From Bacteroidales bacterium (GTDB lineage: Bacteria > Bacteroidota > Bacteroidia > Bacteroidales > TTA-H9), in assembly GCA_030656615.1 (NCBI GenBank), contig JAUSOY010000034.1:1-41221 (forward strand): a stretch of 41,221 nt of DNA, in the 5' to 3' direction. Shown one piece after another: positions 1,025 to 3,643 of the stretch (positions are counted from its first letter, which is position 1; every line of letters begins with the position of its first letter). Under the pieces are notes generated by a model, which searched no databases, was not told where the DNA came from, and saw nothing but the letters and a program-made list of their open reading frames with translations. The position numbers and the translations under genes were made by a program.

Positions 1025-1552
1025 CATCAATTTTTCCATACGAAACTATTGAAAACACTTATCTCTGCTTTAATCTTGATTTAAGATATTTAGGGTCTGC
1101 TGAAAAACTCAGAGAAGATAAAAACGACTCAAATAATACTACACCCGCGATGATCTCAAATACGACCCGGCATGTGGGTTTGTTTTTGTGACACTGTCTG
1201 TTGAATTTCATTTAAACCCATTTCCGGCTCATTACATTCATTTAAAAAAACTAGTGGGATTATTTGGATATCTATAAAACCCGGATAACTTTGTATAAAA
1301 AAATCAGCAAAAACCAAAAGCGATGGTGGAGTACGTAAACAGCGTAATTTACTGCAAAGCAATTTGTTCTTACGGTTTTAGTGACTTTAGGATAAGGCAG
1401 AAATATGTGCTATTGTGTATATTCAGTCGATGTGCTTCATGCAATAAAAGATGCTGCCAACTATAAACTAATATTTTATTTTCAGAATCAAAGGAGTATA
1501 TTTGAGTGAATTAGAAAGTTAATGTAGTGGGATTTGACCACTTTGGATAATT
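1025..1552. other. Intergenic stretch with no recognisable gene
   Basis: I see no convincing gene on either strand. Short open frames exist, for example 1156-1362 on the minus strand, but they lack recognisable motifs and a plausible ribosome site. A segment near 1095-1110 reads GGGTCTGCTGAAAAAC, which resembles an insertion-sequence end, but no matching inverted copy was found. Most likely this is degraded accessory DNA. Confidence 0.5.
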
Positions 1553-1558
1553 TTGATT

Positions 1559-2023
1559 ATGAGTAAGATAAGCACGATTGACATAAATAATGCTATTCTT
1601 TCAATAACAAAAATTAAGGATGAAGATTACATCTGCCTGACTGATATGGCAAAATCCAAAGGAGGAGATAGTAGAGCTGCGGATGTAATAAAAAATTGGA
1701 TTAGAACTCGAACAACGATAGAATTTCTGGGTACCTGGGAGACAATGTATAATCCGAATTTTAAAGTTGTCGAATCTGACCACTTTAAAATGGAGGCTGG
1801 ATTACCAACGAACGAAAAAGGGTTTGTAGTAGGGGAATTTCGATGGCAAGAAGGCTTTGGAGCATTTTCTTATGCCAAGTCTCAACTGGATACTGTTATT
1901 AAATACATAAACAACCAGGAGCAGCATCATCAAAAGATAACATTTAGAGATGAGTATATAGAATTGTTGCAAAAATTTAATGTTGACTATGATGAAAAAT
2001 ATTTGTTTGAATGGATTGAATAA
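1559..2023 (+). CDS. Chimeric protein: KilA-N N-terminal part fused to REP-associated (IS200-like) transposase tail
   Basis: The 154-residue product is built of two unrelated parts in one frame. Residues 1 to about 84 match the start of a KilA-N DNA-binding domain, with YICLTDMAKSK, ADVIKNWIRTR and the segment NPNFKVVESDHFKMEAG; the rest of a normal KilA-N domain (roughly another 25-30 residues) is missing. From about residue 86 (GFVVGEFRWQEGFGAFSY) to the end the sequence is the C-terminal half of a Y1 transposase of the REP-associated type, including the tyrosine motif KYINNQ (Y116, Q120) and the usual tail DEKYLFEWIE. The HUH metal-binding motif of the transposase N-terminal half is absent, so strand cleavage is not expected. 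The ATG at 1559 is preferred over a TTG at 1553. Two REP-like palindromes follow the stop. The join, near base 1810, suggests transposase insertion into a KilA-N gene followed by deletion. Expression is unknown. Confidence 0.7.
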   Translation: MSKISTIDINNAILSITKIKDEDYICLTDMAKSKGGDSRAADVIKNWIRTRTTIEFLGTWETMYNPNFKVVESDHFKMEAGLPTNEKGFVVGEFRWQEGFGAFSYAKSQLDTVIKYINNQEQHHQKITFRDEYIELLQKFNVDYDEKYLFEWIE

Positions 2024-2027
2024 TGTC

Positions 2028-2091
2028 GCTCCACTGGAGCTTAATAAATCACGCATTCAAACATTCTATTATGATTTTGCTCCTCCGGAGC
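2028..2091. repeat. Pair of REP-like palindromes next to the transposase tail
   Basis: Two short hairpins share the same arms: GCTCC-ACT-GGAGC at 2028-2040 and GCTCC-TCC-GGAGC at 2079-2091, 38 bases apart. The first lies five bases after the chimeric gene's stop. REP-associated tyrosine transposases are typically flanked by such palindromes, which are their recognition sites, so this supports the identification of the transposase fragment just upstream. Confidence 0.65.
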
Positions 2092-3440: not shown

Positions 3441-3527
3441 TGGTACCCGAGACAAGACTCGAACTTGCACACCCTTACGAGCACTAGTCCCTGAAACTAG
3501 CGTGTCTACCAATTTCACCACTCGGGC
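3441..3527 (-). tRNA. tRNA-Leu, anticodon CAG
   Basis: An 87-base class II tRNA with long variable arm and encoded CCA. The acceptor stem is GCCCGAG paired with CTCGGGT (one G-T pair), the discriminator is A, and the anticodon arm is CTAGT-TTCAGGG-ACTAG, giving anticodon CAG (reads CUG). The T arm contains GTTCGAGTC. It is the second of two tRNA-Leu genes on this strand, 29 bases behind the GAG copy, and differs from it at only about nine positions, all in the acceptor stem and anticodon arm. Confidence 0.95.
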
Positions 3528-3556
3528 AAAAAATCTTTATAAAAGAACACCTTTTA

Positions 3557-3643
3557 TGGTGCCCAGGACAAGACTCGAACTTGCACACCCTTACGAGCAC
3601 TACCCCCTCAAAGTAGCGTGTCTACCAATTTCACCACCTGGGC
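3557..3643 (-). tRNA. tRNA-Leu, anticodon GAG
   Basis: An 87-base class II tRNA with encoded CCA. The acceptor stem is GCCCAGG paired with CCTGGGC, the anticodon arm is CTACT-TTGAGGG-GGTAG, giving anticodon GAG (reads CUC and CUU). D arm, variable arm and T arm are identical to those of the CAG gene beside it. It is the promoter-proximal gene of the pair; a consensus promoter lies about 50 bases upstream. Confidence 0.95.

Follow-up and report, generated by a model that had tools for sequence, protein, structure and literature searches.

A KilA-N–transposase ORF in a Bacteroidales genome

A genome assigned to a Bacteroidales bacterium (GCA_030656615.1) contains an open reading frame (ORF) that begins as a KilA-N regulator and ends as a transposase without a break in the frame. 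We asked whether this ORF, which lies in a stretch of 41,221 nucleotides (contig JAUSOY010000034.1, hereafter the window), is a DNA-binding protein or the debris of two genes, the two readings offered in a preliminary description of the sequence, and what its KilA-N half reveals about the genes from which it came. According to a 2016 article (PMC4862756), little was known at that time about the sequences that KilA-N domains recognize outside fungi. We consider it quite likely that the whole explanation has two parts: the ORF is a chimera left by deletion, and its KilA-N half stems from a class of genes that carry their own operator within the coding sequence, where it would be read by a helix of the encoded protein.

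Two truncated genes meet in one frame

The division of the ORF into 84 residues of KilA-N and 70 residues of a Y1 transposase, proposed in the preliminary description, was borne out by Pfam and by the relatives of each half. Residues 14–85 matched KilA-N (PF04383, profile positions 8–71 of 107) with 36.4 bits, above the cut-off of 23.8, while residues 82–120 matched Y1_Tnp (PF01797, positions 84–121 of 121) with 22.2 bits, just under the cut-off of 23. There was no NCBIfam match to the chimera. Besides the chimera, the four intact relatives scanned all matched PF04383 above its cut-off. As had been remarked earlier, the KilA-N part lacks its own end: the profile match stops at position 71 and the domain is cut before the wing, since strands 101–114 of an intact relative, which we take to be the wing, lie beyond the cut. 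An in-frame TTG is also present two codons 5' of the ATG that we used as the start.

The join, previously placed near base 1810, could be set to the base by comparison with relatives (Table 1). Where KilA-N relatives read GLPT/FVLSP and transposase relatives read SSKWI/NEKG, the window reads GLPT/NEKG. The best match to the KilA-N half (L007) was 78% identical over a BLAST match that extends beyond the join, and 88% identical across the first 80 residues; the best match to the transposase half (L018) was 86% identical. The flanks agree with the halves, the upstream flank being as in KilA-N genes and the downstream flank as in the transposase. Homologues spanning the join were searched for and not found: there was none among the 80 loci kept of 127 confirmed loci, and no real one among the matches listed from 395 genomes, 190 of which gave matches. 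The single collinear candidate (G015, query positions 24–153, two stops) was rejected as a decayed transposase gene with a chance extension. The missing halves were not found elsewhere in the window, where tblastn with three intact KilA-N and three intact transposase proteins returned nothing at meaningful E-values beyond the two stretches already described.

An error of metagenome assembly could also produce such a join, and the genome is in 90 contigs, the window starts at a contig end and the join is blunt. We regard this explanation as quite unlikely, because each flank matches its half and the next-best copies of the halves in the same genome are distant, at 32% identity for KilA-N and 33% for the transposase tail. 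As assembled, the chimera is real; it is probably ordinary debris.

Table 1. Positions of the chimera, its parts and the neighbouring elements in the window
Feature	Position	Strand	Description
Decayed upstream palindrome copy	1521..1544	+	AATGTAGTGGGATTTGACCACTTT, 7/12 pairs; right half-site GACCAC intact
Chimeric ORF	1559-2023	+	ATG start, 154 aa, no internal stops
KilA-N regulator front, 84 codons	1559..1810	+	Ends before wing and C-terminal domain; from Pfam, relatives and the predicted structure of L013
Predicted recognition helix	1667..1702	+	Codons 37-48; helix from the L013 model, same numbering
Coded 24-bp palindrome	1763..1786	+	Codons 69-76, KVVESDHF, AAAGTTGTCGAATCTGACCACTTT, 9/12 pairs
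KilA-N/transposase join	1810..1811	+	AACG flanks both sides; relatives show no evident overlap
IS200-type Y1 transposase tail, C-terminal 70 codons and stop	1811..2023	+	From Pfam and relatives
Tyr116 codon of YINNQ	1904-1906	+	YxxxQ motif, residues 116-120
First REP-like palindrome	2028..2040	+	Transposase 3' flank, by relatives
Second REP-like palindrome	2079..2091	+	Transposase 3' flank, by relatives
Eco57I-type restriction-modification gene, last codons	2107..2187	+	One stop inside; by eye

The tail and its palindromes derive from an IS200/IS605 transposase

YxxxQ and HUH are motifs with established roles in Y1 transposases. The earlier observation that the chimera keeps the first and has lost the second held: Y116 and Q120 are in place, and the HUH motif, which relatives carry as DHIHIL or DHLHIL, falls in the missing stretch. 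The transposase had also been called REP-associated, a name that found no support. The sole intact relative of the tail that was scanned (L019) scored 78.5 bits as an IS200/IS605 transposase (cut-off 55) but 29 bits against the REP-associated tyrosine transposase model (NF047646, cut-off 80). The palindromes behind the ORF are of the GCTCC..GGAGC type and sit in the 3' flank of related transposases too; they are not dispersed in this genome, where forward and reverse counts at one mismatch were 6/8 against 5/9 for the control. REP-associated transposases thus share with the chimera the Y1 chemistry family and the nearby palindromes, and differ in the score of the intact relative and in this lack of excess. 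The source of residues 85–154 and of both 3' palindromes is an IS200/IS605 Y1 transposase, TnpA (PF01797, NF033573), from which the chimera differs in lacking the HUH half and the part upstream of it.

These results bear on the suggestion that the chimera still recognizes the REP palindromes that follow it. The palindromes are indeed present and YINNQ is kept in the tail, but the HUH half is gone, the palindromes belong to the flank of a transposase that was lost and show no excess in the genome, and the remaining helix is of the GTGGTC type and not of the GCTCC..GGAGC type (see below). We consider such binding extremely improbable.

Further downstream, the ending at 2107–2187 has counterparts behind the related transposases of L018 and L029, and less complete ones behind those of L026 and L058. 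This Eco57I-type ending reads ..IDQLVYxLYxLTEEEIxIVE, and in L029 it closes the gene before the transposase too. Positions 2187–2363 hold the start of a further broken gene of 58 amino acids, which may be RhuM-like and which had no match in Pfam, NCBIfam or PHROGs. Elsewhere in the window, a phosphatidylserine decarboxylase gene (Pfam) occupies positions 140–1024; a stop near 140, seen by eye, closes its frame upstream, and the gene may be without its front. Two adjacent tRNA-Leu genes, with anticodons CAG and GAG, lie at 3441–3643.

KilA-N genes encode a variable palindrome at a fixed site

What stands out most in the KilA-N half, and is absent from the preliminary description, is a palindrome in its coding sequence. 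In this family of KilA-N genes, the eight codons xxxEFxxx that come directly after WE..NP[ND]F make up an in-frame palindrome of 24 bp centred on GAATTC. Its consensus, at codons 69–76, is AA[A/T] followed by five variable bases, cGAATTCg and the complement.

In a set of 77 loci, some of which were fetched twice, the DNA of these eight codons was identical in 73; of the remaining four, three had a substituted peptide and one was not KilA-N. The conserved stretch over these codons, AAAGTGGTCGAATTYGACCACTTT, is the palindrome. It is constant despite a protein identity to the window of 50–78%. The four palindrome codons GAA, GAC, CAC and TTT were used in 73/73 loci, while elsewhere in the same genes GAC was used in 262 of 808 cases and CAC in 89 of 240. 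Pairing at the internal site reached 9–10 of 12 in close relatives and up to 12 in other genes of this KVV type; the window copy (9/12) is at the lower end of the class. Other subfamilies have other peptides and other palindromes: KPLEFEGF is encoded by AAACCCCTCGAATTCGAGGGGTTT and NCTEFGTI by AATTGTACCGAATTCGGTACAATT, and a paralogue in the window's own genome encodes NYPEFGVI by AATTACCCCGAATTCGGGGTAATT.

To quantify self-complementarity, we aligned 254 KilA-N hits and used 250, dropping four that had no ungapped stretch of eight residues. Since the 250 rows fall in 243 locus identifiers, several of which denote the same place, counts were made by distinct 24-mer. The hits yielded 90 distinct 24-mers encoding 73 peptides. 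All 90 came from loci fetched by protein and not by palindrome; the 16 rows from loci fetched by palindrome contributed no distinct 24-mer. The first model alignment (A1) drew 4 of its 12 members (L122, L124, L134, L149) from palindrome scans, and later fetches used protein patterns or whole proteins.

At least 9 of 12 pairs were formed by 85 of the 90 distinct 24-mers, compared with 29 of 60,453 other 24-mers from the same genes. The mean number of pairs was 10.39 of 12 for the coded 24-mers, 6.57 for random synonymous coding of the same peptides and 3.10 for the other 24-mers. Compared individually with random synonymous coding, 81 of the 90 were significant at P ≤ 0.05 and 70 at P ≤ 0.01. 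Twenty-five distinct 24-mers were perfect palindromes (12/12), with 24 different half-sites between them, and the whole set contained 48 natural left half-sites. Pairing was weaker in 35 of the 90, which keep only 8–10 pairs. The centre and the outer A/T bases are near-fixed, while the five inner bases of the arms vary, with double changes that preserve pairing. The comparison shows a palindrome whose bases and peptide vary while its self-complementarity is preserved.

By record title, the genes that bear the palindrome belong to Bacteroidota, Chlorobi, Verrucomicrobia, Bacillota and others, although bins from metagenomes may be misassigned. They also occur on viral contigs and, within Pseudomonadota and Bacillota, on named plasmids or phages.

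Residues of the predicted recognition helix change together with the half-site

Across 147 representatives, with relatedness not modelled, the highest mutual information between protein residues and half-site bases was that of residue 46 and base 8, residue 45 and base 6, residue 41 and bases 5 and 6, and residue 42 and bases 7 and 6, with residue 48 and base 5 ranking close after them. On the second helix of the predicted helix-turn-helix, residues 41, 42, 45 and 46 follow the spacing i, i+1, i+4 and i+5, and so would lie on one face of it. These tests considered sites with at least 8 pairs, and the tree test described below additionally required ORFs of at least 180 amino acids; both the mutual-information and the tree tests ignore branch lengths.

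The four residues (alignment positions -28, -27, -24 and -23, the alignment being gapped at -28 in 30 of the 147 representatives) differed in 2, 3, 6 and 0%, respectively, of 1656 pairs of genes with the same half-site. In 1767 pairs with different half-sites and matched background identity (median background shift -0.001), they differed in 61, 66, 66 and 36%. Positions -29, -26, -21 and -10 also shifted with the half-site, less cleanly. On a tree from which the helix and the palindrome were left out, 8 branches had a change in both residue 46 and base 8 where 0.7 were expected (P = 7e-9), and 15 had a change in both residue 41 and base 5 where 3.3 were expected (P = 8e-9). Among 42 control columns, the lowest P values were 4.5e-3 for base 8 and 1e-4 for base 5.

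Among the pairings at residue 46, N was found with T in 142 cases, D with G in 19, and K or R with C in 19. They would be chemically sensible for a helix that reads the major groove. The relation between the four-residue key and the half-site is not one to one: the key NDRN occurs with GGTGTC (L337, L357) as well as with CCCGTC, and CCCCTC is common to several keys. The window's own key is A41 D42 K45 N46 (ADKN), which is found mostly with GTGGTC half-sites and agrees with the window's right half-site, GACCAC (the complement of GTGGTC). Comparative sequence evidence of this kind strongly supports sequence-specific recognition of the palindrome by the KilA-N protein.

Named plasmids and phages, and the exceptional genes

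Once the rule drawn from these comparisons was fixed, we turned to 18 named plasmid and phage records, picked by us out of 37. The palindrome was kept in 18 of their 19 KilA-N hits, 12 of which had 24-mers already seen; phage EW (L468) is the phage of L297. All seven hits with new 24-mers (six distinct) paired at 10–12 of 12. The residue 46 rule was correct in 15 of 16 applicable cases, a weak test given that 14 of them are the commonest pair, N with T.

Four distinct 24-mers, in 6 of the 250 rows (L332, L334, L335, L362, L364, L366), were not palindromic, and one of these 24-mers recurred in Latilactobacillus (L465) among the named records. Five of these seven rows have, just 5' of the start codon, a palindrome of a type that matches the key. 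The genes with key NDRN (L332, L334, L335, L465) have AAACCCGTCGAAATCGACGGGTTT, with half-site CCCGTC, just before the start codon, and L303 combines the same key with a CCCGTC half-site inside the gene. L362, with key ADKN, has two copies of AAACTGGTCGAATTCGACCAGTTT, with half-site CTGGTC, just before its start codon. The upstream sites of L364 and L366 pair at 9/12 and 8/12, which does not exceed the chance maximum for the 24-mers of a gene. Two of the four exceptional types thus lack the internal palindrome and carry upstream copies.

Palindromes upstream of KilA-N genes

Upstream copies are not confined to the exceptions. A 24-mer with at least 10 pairs was found within approximately 170 bp 5' of the start in 31 of 178 genes, where 2.7 were expected from shuffles and 1 was found in the coding control stretch. 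Inspected by eye, 23 of these 31 were of KilA-N type (6 matching the gene's own subfamily and 17 a different one) and 8 were not; a script's tally of own and other types, under a stricter match than the eye count, was 2/29. At least 4 of the 17 other-type palindromes sit within an adjacent stub ORF. In the window and in 8/8 close relatives with upstream sequence (L007–L014), a copy of the gene's own type lies exactly 242 bp before the internal copy, which itself drifts in this clade (9–10 of 12 pairs). An intact paralogue in the window's genome, L002 (G000 C27), has a perfect palindrome of NSIEFDGI type, AATTCCATCGAATTCGATGGAATT, 272 bp before its internal palindrome; searches of the window's genome revealed no KilA-N gene of NSIEFDGI type.

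In L063 (635–2080) and L402, tandem N-terminal KilA-N stubs with differing palindromes, spaced approximately 270–315 bp apart, precede a full-length gene of another type. These stubs are possible donor cassettes. In L074 and L401, an internal deletion shortly after the palindrome has fused the front of the gene with the C-terminal end of its own family, a cut that resembles that of the window; in L401, part of the palindrome's right arm is also lost.

We also scanned 295 genomes for the KVV-type palindrome itself and found 15 sites in 14 genomes, against 0 for a reversed control pattern. Eight of the sites were inside KilA-N genes, two just upstream, one in a remnant, and four away from any KilA-N gene or remnant. 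In viral sequences, the KVV palindrome was exact in 61 stretches. Its stem with any 6-base loop occurred in at least 120 viral stretches, compared with 3, 9 and 0 when the stem was altered (the loop being narrower in the third case), and the loops at 112 sites included AAATTT (23), AAAATT (11), AAATTC/GAATTT (10) and GAATTC (2). We did not take these copies as proof of function, as many are intergenic, their loops vary and phages of one family repeat. A 'KilA' label given automatically to 41 of 81 sites was likewise dropped for being too lax, since the site itself encodes the peptide. The viral stems (contigs L130–L290) could be terminators or operators.

A probable operator within the regulator's own gene

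Based on the comparisons above, the KilA-N protein very probably binds the coded palindrome, which we interpret as its operator, placed within its own gene. We propose the following mechanism. A gene of this class would carry its operator as a 24-bp palindrome in its coding sequence, and the protein, probably as a dimer, would use the second helix of the helix-turn-helix at its N-terminus to read each of the half-sites, chiefly through residues 41, 42, 45 and 46. Binding would most simply repress the gene itself, either where a site lies over the start region or by a block inside the gene. We infer that the proteins bind DNA as dimers and repress, that the C-terminal domain has a role, and that the chimera is inert.

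Instead of being a DNA site, the palindrome could work as a hairpin in the mRNA that controls translation or attenuation. All palindromes of this kind are able to fold as RNA, the upstream copies adjoin the start codon, and centre pair 10 shows 17 G.T and 0 A.C mismatches. An RNA stem would be expected to tolerate G.U, but across arm pairs 3–9 of 86 distinct 24-mers there were 24 A.C, 12 G.T(U) and 36 other mismatches, with no excess of G.U (coding constraint may bias these counts). The sequence of the half-site, beyond its pairing, tracks the residues of the predicted recognition helix, and Rfam gave no match in the four loci scanned. We consider the hairpin unlikely.

Another explanation is that the palindrome is a site of recombination or integration that makes KilA-N modules exchangeable, with the operator role secondary or absent. 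Some genes have mixed half-sites (e.g., AATTCCCCCGAATTCGGGGTAATT), breaks recur shortly after the palindrome (L074 and the stubs), and tandem stubs of other types stand before full-length genes in L063 and L402. This explanation leaves both the co-change with the helix and the matching upstream copies unexplained, and we judge it very unlikely.

The chimera as probable deletion debris

For the chimera, we propose that a KilA-N regulator gene would have lost everything beyond codon 84 by deletion, that the downstream IS200-type transposase gene would have lost approximately its first 83 codons, and that the remaining ends came together in frame. In our view the product is likely to be non-functional debris, one of the two readings first offered for it, and this is backed by the lost domains and by the lack of a spanning homologue in the searches above. 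Both palindromes in the window are decayed (7/12 and 9/12), which fits a dying gene.

The pN/pS values for pairs with the window were 0.115 for the KilA-N half and 0.139 for the transposase half, and among relatives 0.087 and 0.135. Purifying selection on both halves thus resembles that in relatives, and the fusion is either recent or still constrained. Replacements at sites invariant among relatives numbered 4 of 60 in the KilA-N half (0–6 in relatives) and 3 of 47 in the transposase half (0–4 in relatives).

A working protein, in which the stub of the KilA-N helix-turn-helix has gained a new tail and competes at KilA-N operators, is the alternative to debris. The frame is open across 154 codons with the key residues intact, and N-terminal stubs that end shortly after the palindrome recur, with ORFs of at most 130 amino acids in 36 of 250 rows, at least 7 of which duplicate one place. 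By the structural model of the intact relative L013, the chimera is predicted to keep the helix-turn-helix (helices 27–35 and 37–48) but to lose the C-terminal domain and strands 101–114, the presumed wing. Its predicted fold was poor (pLDDT 42, from a shallow, two-part alignment) compared with 87 for L013. With the wing and C-terminal domain missing, both adjoining palindromes decayed and no spanning relatives found, a working protein appears improbable.

Discussion

Our analysis explains the ORF as probable debris of a KilA-N gene and a transposase gene, and the palindrome in its KilA-N half as the putative operator of the regulator that was lost. Operators within autoregulated genes are known, examples of intragenic sites being gal OI and lac O2, and the KilA-N site would share with these a palindrome in a coding region that is used for control. 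Unlike them, the KilA-N site is fixed in the regulator's own gene across several phyla, lies in frame, and varies in sequence with the helix. Autoregulation through an intragenic operator is thus a known kind, and the new part would be a variable coded operator, matched to the helix, in the regulator's gene. In our searches of open-access articles, preprints excluded, we found neither a description of the coded palindrome in KilA-N genes nor a variable in-frame operator at a fixed site of a regulator's own gene that is matched to its helix.

The chimera and its four intact relatives belong by family match to the KilA-N/APSES-Mbp1 domain (PF04383; PDB 1bm8 for Mbp1, 4ux5 for PCG2 with DNA). No solved structure matched the KilA-N family profile by sequence. 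In a fold search with the intact KilA-N model, Mbp1 and PCG2 were non-significant (E = 0.24 and 0.68). The best Foldseek match to the intact L013 model was the DNA-damage protein DdrC of Deinococcus radiodurans (PDB 7udi, 8u0g; E = 4e-4), with a TM-score of approximately 0.3 by query length. It counts against our reading that the fungal homologue PCG2 is reported to read DNA with its wing and not with the helix (PMC4862756). For the KilA-N domain, neither an operator coded in the gene nor a recognition code of the helix was described in the literature that we searched.

The chimera itself is of little weight, except as a clue to the KilA-N palindrome. A wider interpretation, which we put forward tentatively and hold to be somewhat less than even in its chances, is that bacterial KilA-N regulators, whether from plasmids, phages or chromosomes, are a set of diversified and mutually distinct repressor–operator types, in which each gene would have its own coded operator near the reading helix, promoters would have operators of other types, and tandem N-terminal stubs of other types would serve as donor cassettes through which helix and operator change as a pair. 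If so, incoming elements may be silenced or sensed by type, as in phage immunity groups, and the type would be readable, and partly predictable, from sequence. If the operator reading is true, each KilA-N gene would display its own binding site, and the 48 left half-sites together with the helix residues would form a testable recognition code. Such a code would give a handle on a regulatory network that extends across plasmids, phages and chromosomes of several phyla.
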